Of a stretch of 64,000 bases of DNA, positions 14,614 through 63,369 are shown in pieces. Positions within the stretch are counted from its first letter, which is position 1, and every line of letters starts with the position of its first letter. The notes under the pieces were generated by a model. It did not search any database and had not been told where the DNA came from. It was given only the letters and a program-made list of their open reading frames with translations. Source of the stretch: Pseudomonas sp. MMS21 TM103 (GTDB lineage: Bacteria > Pseudomonadota > Gammaproteobacteria > Pseudomonadales > Pseudomonadaceae); contig NZ_JAJISP010000007.1 in the NCBI RefSeq assembly GCF_022132145.1, forward strand, positions 62,001 through 126,000, in the 5' to 3' direction. The position numbers and the translations under genes were made by a program.

Positions 14614-15509
14614 AGCGTTTCAGTTTCTCCACCCTGATGTTGTGGGCAGGCTTCCTGTTTATCTACTTGCCGATGCTGATCCTGGTGATCTATTCGTTCA
14701 ACGGTTCGCGCCTGGTCACGGTGTGGGGCGGCTGGTCGGTGAAGTGGTACGTCGGTCTGCTCGACAACACCCAACTGATGGGCGCGGTGATGCGCTCCCT
14801 GGAAATCGCCTGCTACACCGCGATTGCCGCAGTTATCCTCGGCACCATGGCGGCCTTCGTCCTGACGCGGGTAACCCGCTTCAAGGGCCGCACCGTGTTC
14901 GGCGGGCTGGTCACGGCACCCCTGGTGATGCCGGAAGTGATCACCGGTCTGTCGCTGCTCCTGCTGTTCGTGGCCATGGCCCAGTTGATCGGCTGGCCGA
15001 GCGAGCGCGGCATCGTGACTATCTGGATCGCCCACACTACCTTCTGTACCGCCTATGTCTCGGTGGTGGTGTCCTCGCGTCTGCGTGAACTGGATCTGTC
15101 GATCGAGGAGGCGGCCATGGACCTGGGCGCCAAGCCCTTGAAGGTGTTCTTCATGATCACCATCCCGATGATCGCGCCGTCCCTGGCGGCCGGCGGCATG
15201 ATGTCCTTCGCCCTGTCGCTGGACGACCTGGTGCTGGCCAGCTTCGTCTCCGGACCCGGCGCCACGACCCTGCCGATGGAGGTGTTCTCCGCCGTGCGCC
15301 TGGGGGTGAAACCGGAAATCAACGCGATCGCCAGCTTGATCCTGTTGTCGGTGTCGCTGATGACCTTCATGGTCTGGTTCATCGCCCGTCGCGCCGAGGT
15401 CGCGCGCAAGAAAGCAGTACAGCAAGCCATGGATGAAACCGCTGGCGTTCGGGACCAAGTGGGCCCGGACAGCCGCCGCGATCCTTCGCAGGTGCATGCG
15501 CCCGCCTAG
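14610..15509 (+). CDS. spuH: Polyamine ABC transporter permease
   Basis: PotC/PotI-type permease, 299 aa, first membrane segment [20 protein letters not shown]. The EAA loop is [20 protein letters not shown]. With SpuG it forms the inner-membrane channel for putrescine/spermidine delivered by SpuD or its paralogue. It ends the operon and is followed within 25 bp by a strong terminator. Confidence 0.95.
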
Positions 15510-15531
15510 GCAGTTGTATGGGTAAACAAAC

Positions 15532-15557
15532 AAGGGTCACTGCGGTGACCCTTTTTT
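15532..15557 (+). terminator. Rho-independent terminator of the spu operon
   Basis: AAGGGTCAC and GTGACCCTT form a 9-bp stem around a TGCG loop, followed directly by a T-run, 22 bp past the spuH stop. Confidence 0.9.
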
Positions 15558-15611
15558 GTGGGGATTTTGCGCACGACTCCTGCGCAGGGAGGCTTCGGCG
15601 CAGTTGTTGGC

Positions 15612-15815
15612 TCACTCGAGGCTCCTGCCTTCGCCGGCTTCCTCATGGGGCACCTGGTCGTGGATGGGCGTGAAGGAGGGGATGTCTTGTCCATCATGAG
15701 TGACGACAATGATTGCCGTCTCGAACTTGCGCGCCGTGTCGTTGAGGATGCGCATGACCGCCATGGCGCGCGTGCCATCAATCCGCCATGGAGCAGCACC
15801 AACGCCGTCAGTTAA
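15612..15815 (-). pseudogene. Decayed C-terminal fragment of an ABC transporter ATPase
   Basis: On the reverse strand the sequence reads IDGTRAMAVMRILNDTARKF, then ETAIIVVTHD, then after a frame change FTPIHDQVPHEEAGEGRSLE and a stop at 15612. This is the D-loop, H-loop (VVTHD) and tail of a MacB/DevA-like ABC ATPase. The Walker A, signature and Walker B are absent. At least one frameshift lies between GQDIP and FTPIHD, and another near the damaged D-loop. Nothing of the permease or membrane-fusion partner remains nearby. Confidence 0.7.
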
Positions 15816-16089
15816 AGCTTCTCTTCCATTCGGTCCACTACACTGCGGCGATGCGGGTAGCGTCTTTGCCGCTCGGCCGTTTCGGCGGCGAAGATCATCG
15901 TGTCCTGGTCAGGTGCTGCGTGGGGGTACCTGTCTCCCTGCCGGCGCGGGTTCAGGCGCGCGGATCATGGGGTTTTTGCCGGCAAGTCCCCTCGCGGGTC
16001 GAATAATAGGGCTCCCAATTGCGTGGCCCGCACTGCGACGCGGCTTCGCCGACAATCGGGTGAAGATTCCACGCTGAGTCCATATAAAT
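15816..16089. other. Non-coding stretch before the ECF operon
   Basis: About 270 bp between the ATPase scar and the sigma-factor promoter. ORFs here have no recognisable similarity, and one merely extends the sigma factor frame upstream of its promoter. I see no RNA gene or terminator. Confidence 0.5.
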
Positions 16090-16115
16090 GGAACATTTGC
16101 CCGGCTGGCAGCGTT
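16090..16115 (+). promoter_or_regulatory. ECF-type promoter of the sigma operon
   Basis: GGAAC (16090-16094), exactly 17 bp, then CGTT (16112-16115), 52 bp before the sigma factor ATG. The surrounding ATGGAACA and an internal CCCGG recur in the promoter at 17636, which supports autoregulation by the encoded sigma factor. Confidence 0.65.
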
Positions 16116-16166
16116 AAATCCGTAACGCAGCGTGCAGGGGCCGATGTCTTGGGCAGAAAAGTTGAT

Positions 16167-16727
16167 ATGCACGATTCGGAAGAACAGTTGATCAAGCAGG
16201 CTCAAGCAGGCAATCGGCATGCCTTCGGCTCGCTGATGCAGCGCAACCAGGCGCGCGTATTCCAGTTTGTCCGGCGTCTGTGCGCAGGCGGCGACGAGGC
16301 CCTGGACATCACCCAAGACACCTTCCTCAAGGCATATCTGGCCTTGGACAAATGGCGGCCCGAGGCACGCTTTCAGACCTGGTTGTTGCAAATCGCCCGC
16401 AACACCACCCTGGATGCGTTGCGTCAGCGGCGGCGCCAGCCATGCGAAGCCCTCGAGGACGCCAGTCAACTACTCAGCCCTGTGGCTTCTCCGGAACAAC
16501 AGTTAGCTGGCTCGCAGCGCATTGCCCTGTTGGAGCGCCTGCTTGCCCGGCTGCCGCTGGAGCACCGCGAAATCTTGCTGCTGCGTGAAGTCGAGGGCCT
16601 GTCTTATGCTGAGCTGGCAACCACCTTGGGAATCCAGCAAGGAACGGTCAAGTCGCGGCTGGCCCGGGCCCGCGAGGCCATGCTGAGCAGTTATCGACAC
16701 GCGAGCGGAGGGCAACTAAATGACTGA
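16167..16727 (+). CDS. ECF-family RNA polymerase sigma factor
   Basis: A 186-aa sigma-70 family protein of the ECF type. Region 2 is seen as HAFGSLMQRNQARVFQF and DEALDITQDTFLKAYLAL with RFQTWLLQIARNTTLDALR. Region 4 is ERLLARLPLEHREILLLREV then LSYAELATTLGIQQGTVKSR. The ATG at 16167 is chosen because the frame further upstream crosses its own likely promoter. Its end overlaps the anti-sigma gene by 8 bp. Together with the next two genes it forms a cell-envelope stress module; the signal is probably a metal, judging from the third gene, but this is inference. Confidence 0.93.
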   Translation: MHDSEEQLIKQAQAGNRHAFGSLMQRNQARVFQFVRRLCAGGDEALDITQDTFLKAYLALDKWRPEARFQTWLLQIARNTTLDALRQRRRQPCEALEDASQLLSPVASPEQQLAGSQRIALLERLLARLPLEHREILLLREVEGLSYAELATTLGIQQGTVKSRLARAREAMLSSYRHASGGQLND

Positions 16728-17163
16728 GCACCCGGATATGGAGGCGCTGTCCGCCTACCTCGATGGCGAGTCTGATCCACTGGCAAGCCGCTTTATCGCC
16801 ACGCATTTGGCCGTCTGCCCCAGTTGCGCCACGGTTGTTCGCGACTTGCAGGCAATCAGCCAAGGCTTGCGTGCGCTGGTGCCAGAGCAACCGCCGGTCG
16901 ATCTAACCGCGCGCGTCAGCGTCTTGCTCGAGAGCCCGCGCCTGAGCCCCCGCCGATCGGCCAGATGGCGTAATCGGCTGCCGGTCGCAGCGGGGGCGGC
17001 GGCATCGGTACTGTTTGGCGTGCTGATCGGCTCCGCCTTACCCCCGGAACCGCCGGCGTCCGCTTCGCTGAGCCTGAATGCCCTGGCCGTGCTGGGGAGC
17101 GCCCCGCCCGGCGCGCTTTGTGCTCGCCCTGAATCCTGCTACCTGAAGGTAACCCTGAAATGA
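16720..17163 (+). CDS. Anti-sigma factor, zinc-binding (ZAS) membrane protein
   Basis: A 147-aa protein whose N-terminus carries the ZAS motif His29-x3-Cys33-x2-Cys36 (HLAVCPSC) in the context YLDGESDPLASRF. A membrane segment follows near residues 87-105 (LPVAAGAAASVLFGVLIGSA), then a short periplasmic tail with two cysteines. It should hold the ECF sigma factor at the membrane. It overlaps the sigma gene and the next gene (ATGA). Confidence 0.88.
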   Translation: MTEHPDMEALSAYLDGESDPLASRFIATHLAVCPSCATVVRDLQAISQGLRALVPEQPPVDLTARVSVLLESPRLSPRRSARWRNRLPVAAGAAASVLFGVLIGSALPPEPPASASLSLNALAVLGSAPPGALCARPESCYLKVTLK

Positions 17164-17624
17164 CGCACGCCTCCCTTCGTACCGCACTGGTCTTTTCGTT
17201 ACTGGTCAATGTCGGCGTACTCGCCGCCGCAGGCTGGCAAATGCTCCCGCGTGATGGTCTGCCGATGCCCTCAGGGGCGCCTACCAGCCTGTCCCGTCAC
17301 CTCCAGTTGAGTGCCGATCAACTGCAACGCTGGCATGACGCCGAGGTGCTGTTCTTCACCCAGTTGCACGCCTCCGGCGGCGCCATCAAAGAGCACCGTG
17401 ACCGGCTGATCGAGGCGATCTTCGGAGATACCCCAGACCCTGAATTGATCGAGCGCGAGCGGGTCGCGATCGCCCGCCTGCAAGACGCACAGCAGCAACA
17501 GGTTATCGAGCAGCTTCTGCTCGAACGGACCATTCTGACTTCCGAACAACGTCAACGGCTGGCGCAACTGCTCACGCAGCAGCCGGTCGGGCCATCCGGT
17601 TTCGAAAGCCTGCACCGTGAATAG
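17160..17624 (+). CDS. Periplasmic heavy-metal-sensor-like protein (CpxP/Spy/ZraP type)
   Basis: A 154-aa protein with an N-terminal membrane anchor or signal (TALVFSLLVNVGVLAAAGWQ). A helical periplasmic domain then carries LQLSADQLQRWHDAE and repeats of Q/E-rich helices ending LTSEQRQRLAQLLTQ. This is the pattern of the Metal_resist/CpxP group. It overlaps the anti-sigma gene by 4 bp, so it likely modulates the anti-sigma factor or acts as an envelope chaperone. The metal or stress sensed is not shown by the sequence. Confidence 0.75.
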   Translation: MTHASLRTALVFSLLVNVGVLAAAGWQMLPRDGLPMPSGAPTSLSRHLQLSADQLQRWHDAEVLFFTQLHASGGAIKEHRDRLIEAIFGDTPDPELIERERVAIARLQDAQQQQVIEQLLLERTILTSEQRQRLAQLLTQQPVGPSGFESLHRE

Positions 17625-17635
17625 GCGCAAAAGAT

Positions 17636-17661
17636 GGAACAAAAAACTCCCGGGCGACGTT
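17636..17661 (+). promoter_or_regulatory. Second ECF-type promoter, upstream of the exported-protein gene
   Basis: GGAAC (17636-17640), exactly 17 bp, then CGTT (17658-17661), 65 bp before the ATG at 17726. It matches the promoter at 16090 in both boxes, spacing, the ATGGAACA context and a shared CCCGG in the spacer. Confidence 0.65.
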
Positions 17662-17725
17662 CAAGTAAATGAAATCAGTCGCTGAGATCGGCGACCATCA
17701 TTTACTGCATTGACGGAGTCCCACC

Positions 17726-18214
17726 ATGAACCTGCCCCCCCGTACAGCCATTCTCGCCCTGATCCTGGGCGCTTCCTCTCTGAGCTTTGCCCACGCCAGC
17801 CTGGCTAGCGAAGCCGCGCACCAGCACGGAGCCTCCACGCATGAGCTGCAACTGAACGCTGGCGAAAAATGGGCTACCGATGCGCCGTTGCGCAAGGCCA
17901 TGGGGGCGCTGAATGGCGCCATGCAGACGTCATTGCCGGCCATCCATGACAACCAGCTGGGCGATGCGCAGTACGACCAACTGGCCGCTCGGATCAATGA
18001 TGAAGTGGCCTATATGGTCAAGCATTGCAAGCTGGCACCCGAGGCCGACGCACAACTGCACCTGGTTATCGCCGAGCTGTTGGCCGGTGCCGACAGCATG
18101 GCCGGCAAGACTCCCGACGAGGCCCGTCGAAATGGGGCGGTCAAAGTCCTTGGTGCATTGCAAACCTATGCCACGTACTTCGCCGATACCTCCTTCGACA
18201 CCATCGAGCATTGA
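17726..18214 (+). CDS. Exported protein of unknown function, probable target of the ECF sigma factor
   Basis: A 162-aa protein with a signal peptide (ILALILGASSLSFAHASLAS) and a His-containing mature start (AAHQHGASTHE). A helical domain follows with LNAGEKWATDAPLRKAMGAL, MVKHCKLAPEADAQLHLVIA and ADSMAGKT. Similar exported proteins occur in other proteobacteria, sometimes loosely annotated DnrO-like; no function is established that I can cite. The single Cys next to His (KHC) and the His cluster fit metal binding, as does the module next door. Confidence 0.75.
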   Translation: MNLPPRTAILALILGASSLSFAHASLASEAAHQHGASTHELQLNAGEKWATDAPLRKAMGALNGAMQTSLPAIHDNQLGDAQYDQLAARINDEVAYMVKHCKLAPEADAQLHLVIAELLAGADSMAGKTPDEARRNGAVKVLGALQTYATYFADTSFDTIEH

Positions 18215-18263
18215 GCTGATTCTGATGCAGGTTGCACCAATGCCTGACTGGGCATGGCCGACG

Positions 18264-18285
18264 GAGGGTCACCGCAGTGACCCTC
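18264..18285. terminator. Hairpin after the exported-protein gene
   Basis: GAGGGTCAC pairs with GTGACCCTC around CGCA, about 50 bp past the stop. The T-run is poor (TGTCGTGT). The arms resemble the spu terminator at 15532. Confidence 0.55.
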
Positions 18286-18432
18286 TGTCGTGTAGTTGGC
18301 GATGCTCGGCAGCTGCTCGCTTTCCAGGTCGGCGATGCACCCAACGATTTTAACTGTACATCCATACAGATTAAGGTTGCCTGAACCCGCGCCACTGCGC
18401 ATGCTGTGTGCCATCGCGACAAGGAATCAATG

Positions 18433-20382
18433 ATGGCGGCCATGCAGCTCTTCCTCTGTGAGAAACCCTCCCAGGCCAAAGACATCGCCAAGGTGCTCGG
18501 CGCCAACCGGCGTGGCGATGGCTGCTGGCTGGGCAGCAACCTGACGGTGACCTGGTGCATTGGCCACCTGCTGGAAACCGCCCCGCCGGATGCCTACGAT
18601 GCCCGCTACAAACGCTGGGTGCTGAGTGACCTGCCAATCATCCCCGAGCGCTGGAAGATGCTGGTCAAGCCCAAGACCTCCGGCCAGTTCAAGGTGGTCA
18701 AGCGCCTGCTCGGCGAAGCCGGCGAGCTGGTCATCGCCACCGACGCCGACCGCGAGGGCGAGATGATCGCCCGCGAGCTGGTCGAGCATTGCCGCTATCG
18801 CGGGCCGATCCGGCGCCTCTGGCTGTCGGCCCTGGACGACGCCTCGATCCGCAAGGCCCTGGCCGCGCTCAAGCCCGGCGCCGAGACCTTCAGCCTCTAC
18901 CATTCGGCGCTGGGCCGCTCGCGCGCCGACTGGCTGATCGGCATGAACATGAGCCGGCTGTTCACCCTGCTCGGCCAGCAGTCCGGTTATCAGGGCGTGC
19001 TGCCGGTGGGCCGGGTACAGACCCCGACCCTGCGCCTGGTGGTCGATCGCGACCGCAGCATCGCCGATTTCGTGCCGCTGCCGTACTGGGCCATCGAGGT
19101 GCCGCTGCTGGCCGACGACACCACGTTCAGCGCCCAGTGGCGAGCCGCGGCGGATGTCTGTGACGAGCAGGGCCGTTGTTTGCATCAGGCGCTGGCGCAG
19201 GAGGCGGCGATCGCCATGGGTAATGCGGGCAGTGCACGGGTGGTGAAACTGCGCACCGAGCGCATGCGCGAAGCGCCGCCGCTGTTGTTCGATCTGGGCA
19301 CCCTGCAGGAAGTCTGCTCCAAGAAGCTTGGCCTCGGCGCCCAGGAAACCCTGGATATCGCCCAGGCGCTCTACGAAACCCACAAGGTAATCACCTACCC
19401 GCGCAGCGACTGTGGCTACCTGCCGCTCAGCCAGCACGCCGAGGCGCCGGCCATCCTCGCTGCGCTGGGCCGGGCCGATTCAGGCCTGGCCGGCCTGCTC
19501 GAGCACTTGGACCCGCAACGCCGCTCGCGGGCCTGGAACGATGCCAAGGTCAGCGCCCACCACGGCATCATCCCGACCGCCGCCGCGCTGAACCTGGAGC
19601 GCCTGGTCGGCAAGCAACGGGCGGTCTATACCCTGATCCGCGCCCGCTACCTGGCGCAGTTCCTGCCCAGCCACGAATACGACCGCACCCAGGCGGATTT
19701 CGACTGCGCCGGCCAGGCCCTGCGCGCGGTCGGCAAGGTCATTGTCGAACCTGGCTGGCGCCGTGCCTTGCCCGAAGCCCTGGCACCCGCCAAAGGCCGC
19801 GAAGCGCCAGTCGCACAAGCACTGCCGGCCCTGCGCCAAGGGCAGGACTGCGCAGTGCTGGGCGTGACCCTCAAGGACCTCTGGACCCAGCCGCCGAAAC
19901 CCTTCACCGAGGGCGACCTGATCAAGGCGATGAAGAACGTCGCCAAGCTGGTCGAGGACCCGCGGCTCAAGCAGAAACTCAAGGACACCACCGGCATCGG
20001 CACCGAAGCGACCCGCGCCGGCATCATCCAGGGCCTGCTCGACCGCGGCTACCTGCTCAAACAGGGCAAGGCACTGGCGGCGACTCCGGCCGCCTTCAGC
20101 CTGATCGATGCTGTCCCCCGCGCCATCGCCGACCCCGGCACCACGGCAATCTGGGAGCAGGCGCTGGACATGGTCCAGAGCGGCGAGATGAGTCTGGACG
20201 ACTTCGTCGCCAAACAGTCGGCCTGGATGAGCAAGCAGGTGCAACGCTGCGCCGGCCTGCGCCTGACCATCAGCGGCCCCGCCAGCCCGGCCGCTGCCGC
20301 GCCCTGGAAAGGCAAACGCAAGACCGGCAAGCGCAAGGCGACGGCGAGTAAGCGGGTAGGCAAGCCGGTTGCGCGAGGGTGA
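18433..20382 (+). CDS. topB: DNA topoisomerase III
   Basis: Type IA topoisomerase, 649 aa from the second of two adjacent ATGs; AAGGA lies 7 nt upstream of it. Toprim motifs are MQLFLCEKPSQAKDIAKVLG and ATDADREGEMIARE. Tyr322 in ITYPRSDCGYLP is the DNA-linking tyrosine. LPVGRVQTPTLRLV and GIGTEATRAGII are typical. The tail is short and Lys/Arg-rich (GKRKTGKRKATASKRVGKP), suited to DNA binding, with no zinc fingers. It resolves recombination and replication intermediates. Confidence 0.95.
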   Translation: MAAMQLFLCEKPSQAKDIAKVLGANRRGDGCWLGSNLTVTWCIGHLLETAPPDAYDARYKRWVLSDLPIIPERWKMLVKPKTSGQFKVVKRLLGEAGELVIATDADREGEMIARELVEHCRYRGPIRRLWLSALDDASIRKALAALKPGAETFSLYHSALGRSRADWLIGMNMSRLFTLLGQQSGYQGVLPVGRVQTPTLRLVVDRDRSIADFVPLPYWAIEVPLLADDTTFSAQWRAAADVCDEQGRCLHQALAQEAAIAMGNAGSARVVKLRTERMREAPPLLFDLGTLQEVCSKKLGLGAQETLDIAQALYETHKVITYPRSDCGYLPLSQHAEAPAILAALGRADSGLAGLLEHLDPQRRSRAWNDAKVSAHHGIIPTAAALNLERLVGKQRAVYTLIRARYLAQFLPSHEYDRTQADFDCAGQALRAVGKVIVEPGWRRALPEALAPAKGREAPVAQALPALRQGQDCAVLGVTLKDLWTQPPKPFTEGDLIKAMKNVAKLVEDPRLKQKLKDTTGIGTEATRAGIIQGLLDRGYLLKQGKALAATPAAFSLIDAVPRAIADPGTTAIWEQALDMVQSGEMSLDDFVAKQSAWMSKQVQRCAGLRLTISGPASPAAAAPWKGKRKTGKRKATASKRVGKPVARG

Positions 20383-61959: not shown

Positions 61960-63369
61960 GTGAAGGTTTTCCCGATATTGCGTTTGCTCTTGGTCCTGGC
62001 CCTGTTGCTCTTGCCTGCGGGGTTGATGGCGGCACCTGGAATGGTGGTGGAGTTGCGCGTCGATGGTGCGATTGGTCCGGCCAGCGCCGATTACGTGGTG
62101 CGTGGCCTGTCCCGCGCGGTAGACGAGGGCGCGCAACTGGTGGTGCTGAGCATCGACACCCCCGGCGGTCTGGACACCTCGATGCGCTCGATCATCAAGG
62201 CGATTCTCGCCAGTCCGATTCCGGTGGCCAGCTTTGTTGCCCCCAGTGGTGCACGGGCCGCCAGTGCCGGCACCTATATCCTCTATGCCAGCCATATTGC
62301 GGCGATGGCGCCGGGCACCAATCTTGGCGCGGCCACCCCGGTGCAGATCGGCGGCATGCCCGGTTCACCGTCGCCCGCACCGGACCAGCCGGAAAGCGCC
62401 GATAAGGGCGACAAGCCCGGCGAGGCCAGCGAGGCCGAGAAGGCCGGCGTACCGACCGATACCCTGAGCAAGAAACAAATCAACGATGCCTCCGCCTATA
62501 TCCGGGGGTTGGCGCAGATGCGCGGGCGCAATGCCGAGTGGGCCGAGCGGGCGGTGCGGGAGTCAGTCAGCCTGTCCGCCGAAGAAGCGCTCGCCCGCAA
62601 GGTGGTCGACTACCTCGCCCGTGACCTGGCCGACCTGCTCAGGCAACTGGACGGTAAGCGCTTCACCGCCGCGGGCGTCGAGGTGACGCTGCAAACCGCC
62701 GATGCCGTGGTGGTCAGCCGCGAGCCGGACTGGCGGGCACAGTTGCTGGCGGTGATCACCAATCCCAGTGTGGCGCTGCTGTTGATGATGATCGGCGTCT
62801 ATGGACTGTTCTTCGAGTTTTCCAACCCGGGCAGCGGCGTCGGCGGCGTGCTCGGCGGTATCTGCCTGATTCTGGCGCTGTATGCCCTGCAGCTGTTGCC
62901 GGTCAACTACGCGGGAGTGGCCTTGATCCTGCTCGGCATCGCCTTTATCGCCGCCGAAGCATTCCTGCCGAGTTTCGGCGTGCTCGGGATTGGCGGGCTG
63001 GTCGCTTTCGTCTTCGGCGCCTTGATCCTGATCGACACCGAAGTGCCCGGCTTCGGCATTCCCCTGGCGTTGATCGTGACCCTGGCCCTGACCACTGGCG
63101 GAGTGATTTTCGCCATTCTCAGCATGGCCTTGCGCGCCAGGCGCCGCGCCCTGGTCGGCGGCGACAGCGAATTGATCGGCAGCCTGACGCGGATCCAGGC
63201 GGTGCAGCCAAGCAACCCGCTGGGCGGCTGGGTGCAACTGCAAGGCGAGAACTGGCAGGTCGTCAGCCAGGTGCCGCTGCAACCCGGCCAGCAGGTGCGG
63301 GTGCTGGCGCGCAAAGGCTCGACGCTGGACGTCGCCACCACTGAAGACACACCGCCACAAGGAGACTGA
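61960..63369 (+). CDS. NfeD-family membrane serine protease (long form)
   Basis: 469 aa from a GTG at 61960 with GGAGAGG close upstream and a good signal peptide ([16 protein letters not shown]); in-frame codons further upstream lack such a start. The ClpP-like protease domain has [16 protein letters not shown] and the catalytic Ser102 in [12 protein letters not shown]. Four to five membrane helices follow, then an OB-fold NfeD domain. It partners with the SPFH protein encoded 2 bp downstream of its stop; archaeal homologues cleave stomatin. Confidence 0.92.

Follow-up and report, generated by a model that had tools for sequence, protein, structure and literature searches.

In the cobalt-nickel system CnrYXH of Cupriavidus metallidurans, a sigma factor of the extracytoplasmic function (ECF) group, a membrane anti-sigma factor and the sensor CnrX are encoded together, and the target of the circuit is an efflux pump. 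A module of related composition, the subject of this work, is located in Pseudomonas sp. MMS21 TM103 (source genome size of 4.95 Mb) on a stretch of 64,000 nucleotides, positions 62,001 to 126,000 of contig NZ_JAJISP010000007.1, which is hereafter called the window and whose own numbering is used throughout. The module consists of the genes for an ECF sigma factor, a zinc-type anti-sigma factor of the ZAS class, a CnrX-like sensor and a small exported protein, with two predicted ECF promoters, P1 before the sigma gene and P2 before the exported-protein gene. With a rough probability of 0.55, it is read as a closed, self-amplifying circuit of the CnrYXH type, in which periplasmic redox or nitrogen-oxide stress would be the most likely signal and one exported protein the output; the predicted regulon, comprising its own operon and this one exported protein, is well supported by the sequence comparisons.

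All four genes have the same direction, on the forward strand. P1 (16090-16115) is followed by the sigma gene (16167-16727), whose product of 186 amino acids matches the Pfam models of region 2 (PF04542) and region 4 (PF08281) over the cut-offs, with no region 3 match listed, and thus has the domain composition of an ECF (group IV) sigma factor. The ZAS gene (16720-17163, 147 amino acids) and the sensor gene (17160-17624, 154 amino acids, with PF13801 at 65.6 bits against a cut-off of 29.2) overlap the preceding genes by 8 and 4 bases, respectively, so that the three look like one operon. P2 (17636-17661) lies within the 101-base gap preceding the exported-protein gene (17726-18214, 162 amino acids). 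Both copies of the motif GGAAC-N17-CGTT, each contained in ATGGAACA, were reproduced at the places given in the initial annotation, 52 bp upstream of the ATG at 16167 and 65 bp upstream of the ATG at 17726, and the gene set proposed there (sigma, ZAS, a CpxP/metal-sensor-like protein and an exported one) was borne out by the Pfam matches and gene calls. No match was obtained in the Rfam scan of 15400-18500, no sigma-70 promoter was found in 15900-18420, and the terminator predictions around the module in the latter region were at the chance level only.

The main evidence comes from comparative footprinting of the two promoters. The module set comprised 38 loci of the order sigma-ZAS-sensor-exported from 36 distinct genomes: the window; nine of the 25 loci from one search for exported-protein relatives (L031-L036, L038, L041, L045); L098-L122 from a family-wide sensor search; and L170, L174 and L175. 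Two genomes are repeated in the set, L098 being the same as L036 and L119 the same as L041 (same contig positions; L119 is 100% identical to L041). When GGAAC-N15..18-CGTT was searched for within 200 bp from each gene, it preceded the exported-protein gene at all 38 loci (36/36 distinct genomes), the sigma gene at 35 of them (33/36 distinct genomes), and neither the ZAS nor the sensor gene at any of the 38. The sites represent 16 distinct sequences on the sigma side, 12 of them starting with GGAACATTT, and 21 on the exported side, 17 of them starting with GGAACAAA, with a spacer of 16 or 17 in all. The equal spacing and the CCCGG in both spacers, to which the initial annotation had drawn attention, are therefore features of the window, the spacing varying among the relatives and the CCCGG being unconserved.

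The exported-side site follows the module closely. Among 31 exported-family loci, the motif was present in the nine with the module and in two orphan loci (L037, L039), and before the exported-family gene in none of the 20 that lack the module; it was also missing in 15 further module-free loci, 12 of which are distinct (L148, L153 and L155 repeat L162, L161 and L163), which gives absence before 32 of 32 distinct exported-gene relatives without the module. It is this conservation, and not the statistics of a single genome, that shows the motif to be more than chance. A box of the FNR type (TTGAT-N4-ATCAA, with up to 2 mismatches) was found in 14 module-free exported-gene relatives only in L040 and L042, one in each, 236-237 bp upstream, from which no inference on regulation is drawn.

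A genome-wide enrichment of the motif, proposed in the initial annotation as a check, was not observed, the genome of the window containing 22 matches to GGAAC-N17-CGTT versus 47 for the reversed pattern. Because the loose motif is not enriched, this genome alone proves little; the negative result is in keeping with a regulon confined to two promoters at the module. With the ATGGAAC extension, 3 matches versus 0 were obtained in the whole genome, the third lying inside a gene of 187 amino acids, and 18 of the 22 loose sites fall in a mechanically called open reading frame of more than 150 amino acids on either strand, which says little, because P1 itself also falls in such a frame. The refined motif GGAACWWW-N13/14-CGTT, derived from the first module loci, was run on ten whole genomes; the module sites match it by construction, whereas the scarcity of other sites does not arise in this way. 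The only two sites were those of the module in P. aestuarii, P. borbori, P. benzenivorans and Acidovorax SRB_14, while the module accounted for two of three sites in the window's genome and in Serpens, two of five in Denitrificimonas and one of three in ANT_H4, and the retained promoter for one of seven in ANT_H12B and one of four in PS723, the genomes of the orphan loci; the reversed control gave 1-20 matches per genome in the ten. The third refined site of the window's genome is directed into the end of an opposite-strand gene. With the relaxed -10 element (GGAACWWW-N14/15-GTT), 4-8 sites per genome were counted in five genomes, under a reversed control of 13-26, and one 26-base string was common to G000 and G120. 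A genome-wide regulon was rejected, since both the loose and the relaxed motifs stay below their reversed controls.

The anti-sigma factor belongs to the zinc-type ZAS class by its H-x3-C-x2-C motif and the zf-HC2 match (PF13490) over the cut-off. In 28 distinct sequences, H29, C33 and C36 of this motif are invariant, as is PPG-x-L-C134-x5-C140 of the tail. Hydropathy predicts a single transmembrane segment at about 87-107, with the zinc motif before it and the short tail after it, on the far side of the membrane. The sensor carries an N-terminal hydrophobic segment (6-24), predicted from hydropathy to be a membrane anchor, and its model (mean pLDDT 71.6) is closest to CnrX, at a Z score of 10.8 and a root-mean-square deviation of 2.8 over 102 aligned residues, a Z that helical models often reach; the best Foldseek E-value was 0.04, and a VirG-like STV protein, ZraP, Spy, NccX and CpxP ranked behind CnrX. 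Among 27 distinct sensor sequences, the helical core contains no invariant His, Met or Cys, E62 being invariant and H152 near the C-terminus the only such residue noted as conserved, and the sensor of the window has no cysteine at all. The metal site of CnrX thus does not seem to be retained, as judged without a residue-level CnrX alignment, and for this reason the tail cysteines C134 and C140 become the best candidates for the input, whether by redox change, nitrosation or metal binding. Of the interpretation in the initial annotation, the ECF module, the conserved own promoter, the small regulon and the CpxP/CnrX sensor stand, while metal stress is no more than a possible signal, given the residues of the sensor core. 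Sensor relatives also occur directly behind genes for DHC-type dihaem cytochromes c, without a sigma gene (L166, 6469-6924, reverse strand; L167, 6290-6751, forward strand), and the sensor may therefore have its own role with these cytochromes.

The exported protein has an N-terminus resembling a signal peptide by hydropathy, and the exported protein of P. aestuarii, the closest named relative found for the window, is 95% identical to it. No Pfam match exceeded the cut-off (the best was DUF6655, at 19.2 versus 27 bits), no match was obtained in NCBIfam or PHROGs, and 26 aligned family members gave only weak matches, to DUF6655 in three (best E 0.00077) and to TIGR03931 in one (E 0.005), the cut-offs being shown for the first member only. 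The suggestion that this protein is a dedicated target without a family model is supported by these scans together with the conserved P2. For residues 53-151, the predicted structure is a four-helix bundle (mean pLDDT 80), and H32, W49, D52, M59, C101 and H112 are invariant in 26 exported-family relatives, with M59 conserved down to at least 90% in 28 distinct module sequences. No solved structure was matched by sequence, the best profile-search E-value being 1, and the fold matches were generic bundles, with a best Foldseek E of 0.17 for any of them. A resemblance to cytochrome c' (Z about 8, root-mean-square deviation 2.9, 101 aligned) appeared amid many unrelated bundles; an assignment to cytochrome c' was considered, but the protein has no CxxCH haem-attachment motif and C101 as its single cysteine. 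Family genes are also found on plasmids of Paracoccus denitrificans (L058, 4782-5375) and Rhizobium sp. Khangiran2 (L061, 1805-2398), where they share 582 of 594 bases, a sign of horizontal transfer, and as tandem copies in Aromatoleum toluclasticum (L044, 4270-5405), the first of which lacks the W-x-T-D motif.

The distribution of the genes suggests where the circuit may operate. In one sample of 398 Pseudomonadaceae genomes, used for all four genes, the sensor was found in 38, the exported family in 63, norB in 139 and DUF1924 in 35, and all 38 sensor-positive genomes contain the exported family. The latter occurs in 61 of the 139 norB-positive versus 2 of the 259 norB-negative genomes, and norB accordingly in 61 of the 63 exported-positive versus 78 of the 335 other genomes, an association that Fisher values overstate because the genomes are related; one of the two norB-less exported-positive genomes, G378, is 73% complete. 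The genome of the window contains norB, and no DUF1924 gene was found in it. For the genus of the window alone, 119 genomes were drawn separately; five of them, including that of the window, have the exported protein. A link of the module to denitrification is thus likely.

The gene neighbourhoods were inspected in 30 exported-family loci without the module or an orphan promoter, namely the 20 tested for the motif and 10 picked for context. In nine of them (L046, L047, L049, L156, L157, L158, L161, L164, L165), a norB, norD, dnr, ScdA/RIC-type or nosZ/nosL gene is nearby, at an identity of at least 72% to queries that derive from two of these loci, L156 and L157; weaker matches to norB or norD, at 43% and 55%, were found in L051 and L059. 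The exported-family paralogues in L156 and L164 adjoin nosZ-nosL, and NorR-like genes are also among the neighbours of the paralogues. A TetR-HlyD-MacB-like ATP-binding cassette (ABC) cluster adjoins ten loci (L032-L034, L041, L043, L048, L050, L059, L162, L173), five of which (L032-L034, L041, L173) are module loci; this context spans gamma- and betaproteobacteria, L048 consisting of ABC genes only, at a contig end.

Genes for a cytochrome b/flavin reductase, a DUF1924 protein of the sphaeroides heme protein (SHP) type and a DHC precede the module in P. benzenivorans (L035), Serpens (L036), L168 (genus g5) and L169 (genus g15, perhaps Stutzerimonas). SHP has been reported to oxidise nitric oxide to nitrate, that is, to possess nitric oxide dioxygenase activity (PMC2909971). 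By coordinates, 21 of the 29 full-module genomes of the 398-genome sample (26 loci plus L170, L174 and L175) have a DUF1924 match no more than 1.7 kb away from the sensor; in G163 the distance is 70 kb, and seven genomes have no such match. For 10 of the 39 sensor matches, no full module was observed: inspection of four (L123-L126) revealed neither a sigma nor a ZAS gene up to 1.5 kb from the sensor match, and six were not fetched. A DUF1924 gene lies within 0.6 kb of seven of these 10. In the window itself, a 3' remnant of a DHC gene (16042-16077, forward strand), ending in RRGFADNRVKIPR and a stop codon, is left immediately upstream of P1; it shares 22 identical bases (16057-16078) with the 3' terminus of the L168 DHC gene and has the same position relative to the sigma promoter as in the relatives; the tblastn match alone is weak (64% over 11 amino acids, E=18). 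The refined motif was not found before the cytochrome genes of P. benzenivorans, and these genes are for this reason regarded as neighbours and not as demonstrated targets. Together, the distribution and the neighbourhoods point to denitrification and periplasmic cytochromes, with copper as a possible signal besides.

The following mechanism is proposed. At rest, the membrane-bound ZAS protein would hold the ECF sigma factor, and the sensor, a protein of probable CnrX fold anchored in the same membrane, would monitor the periplasm. The signal from there, for which redox or nitrogen-oxide stress arising during denitrification is the most likely candidate, would be read by the ZAS tail, through its C-x5-C pair, jointly with the sensor and would free the sigma factor, which is predicted to fire P1, giving amplification and, because the inhibitor is also made, reset. 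The freed factor would fire P2 as well, and the resulting four-helix protein, once exported, may act in the periplasm by binding or buffering the stressor itself or else a cofactor, metal or haem. A narrower version, put forward only tentatively, is that an intermediate of denitrification, nitric oxide or its product, is sensed via the cysteine pair and a CnrX-fold protein without a metal site, with the single four-helix protein as the output.

Several observations weigh against this circuit. The sigma-side motif is unmatched in L032 (where AGTT is found), L038 and L175, and most of the module genomes belong to a few genera, so that the module counts are not independent. The genomes of L037 and L039 keep the exported gene with its promoter without a sigma gene; the refined motif is commoner off the module in Denitrificimonas, ANT_H4, ANT_H12B and PS723; and further sites of a weaker or degenerate form are possible, because the module promoter of L120, GGAACCTTT, itself escapes the refined pattern. 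Residues 1-42 of the sensor model are of low confidence. The exported family has other neighbours too, namely the TetR-HlyD-MacB-like ABC genes and, in a single case, genes for copper ATPases. Moreover, 102 norB genomes have no sensor match, so that denitrification does not require the circuit.

The alternative that survives best is a circuit for copper or another thiophilic metal, in which the CnrX-like protein or the cysteines of the anti-sigma factor would sense an excess of copper in the periplasm and the exported protein would serve as a copper buffer or chaperone. This is possible, since the CnrX family, to which the sensor model is similar, has solved Ni, Co, Zn and Cu forms; H32, M59, C101 and H112 of the exported family are invariant or nearly so and its N-terminus is His-rich; and the position of the L156 and L164 paralogues beside nosZ-nosL, as well as that of one relative next to genes for P-type ATPases and a copper chaperone, would agree with a buffer useful to denitrifiers on account of copper enzymes such as NosZ. 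Paired periplasmic cysteines are also described for a metal-responsive ECF system, SigF-NrsF of Caulobacter, which responds to Cr and Cd (PMC3511200). However, a core without invariant His, Met or Cys does not favour a metal sensor, and the only other refined site in the window's genome has, by its direction into the end of an opposite-strand gene, no metal exporter under it. A general sensor of envelope-protein damage, that is, a titration switch of the CpxP/Spy type with the exported protein as a helper chaperone, is unlikely: the sensor does match CpxP and Spy in structure (Z 7.3-9.3) and PF13801 in sequence, but CnrX outranks both by about 1.5 Z and the distribution is tied to norB.

Still less probable is that the promoters serve another cellular ECF sigma factor with a similar GGAAC/CGTT preference and that the local one is not their user. 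AAC/CGT is described as a common pattern of ECF promoters, and the canonical EcfG uses AAC/CGTT (PMC8103513). The best argument that another sigma factor can use the site is provided by the two orphan loci, in whose genomes no sigma relatives were found at E-values up to 1e-30; L039 retains a stump of the sensor gene. On the other hand, the orphan promoters share a stretch of 25 bases without mismatch with the promoter of L038, a locus that has the sigma gene, so that the losses may be recent; the exported-gene site is found only where the module is or was; and in four whole genomes the refined motif has no site outside the module. In L037 (1901-3606), the orphan gene with its kept promoter adjoins a chemoreceptor with a CZB zinc-binding domain, which occupies the position of the sigma operon in the relatives. 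A chance pair of motifs in a high-GC genome is hardly credible, for although the 2 matches in the 64 kb of the window (0.40 expected) were equalled or exceeded in 7 of 100 shuffles and the genome shows no enrichment, the sites are conserved in place across genera in a set of 36 distinct genomes.

Under the preferred reading of a closed circuit responding to periplasmic stress, the unnamed cluster is a minimal regulatory loop for which a single output is predicted, with conservation in the 36 distinct genomes found. In one survey, the regulators responding to nitrogen oxides were given as FNR-like proteins, two-component systems, NorR and NsrR (PMC1274295). An ECF route watching the periplasm would, if true, be an addition to those surveyed, and the exported protein would represent a new periplasmic four-helix family handling nitrogen oxides or a cofactor that these damage. 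The module also gives grounds for studying a family that neither Pfam nor NCBIfam models cover and some of whose members lie in nor and nos clusters.

Among the known systems, DnrO of Pseudomonas stutzeri (dnrNO) may be linked to the exported family by gene order: in L157, L158 and L165 (genus g15), the exported relatives adjoin ScdA/RIC-type (DnrN-like) and dnr-like genes. In the open-access literature of PubMed Central, nothing was found that joins dnrO, dnrN and denitrification (the titles for dnrO and nitric oxide being medical or veterinary) or that links sphaeroides heme protein to a sigma factor, and the combination of ECF sigma, periplasmic heavy metal sensor and Pseudomonas returned, by title, only the flagellin sigma factor of Azospirillum. 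In the operons of SHP, DHC and cytochrome b with the sensor kinases SK1-SK3, cytochrome genes of these kinds likewise stand next to regulators; the regulator of the module is an ECF sigma unit, whereas the main text of PMC2909971 never mentions sigma. SigF-NrsF of Caulobacter crescentus is similar in its small regulon, in the closely similar promoter motifs that precede both the sigma operon and an adjacent one, and in the two conserved, probably periplasmic cysteines of the inhibitor; unlike the ZAS protein of the window, NrsF has six predicted transmembrane segments, the targets differ, and a CnrX-like partner is not mentioned in the available text (PMC3511200). From CnrYXH the module differs in its zf-HC2 ZAS anti-sigma factor, CnrY being called class II (PMC7406223), in the sensor without invariant core His or Met, and in the target, a small exported protein and not a pump. 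With CnrYXH it has in common the union of an ECF sigma factor, a membrane anti-sigma factor and a membrane-anchored sensor whose model best matches CnrX.

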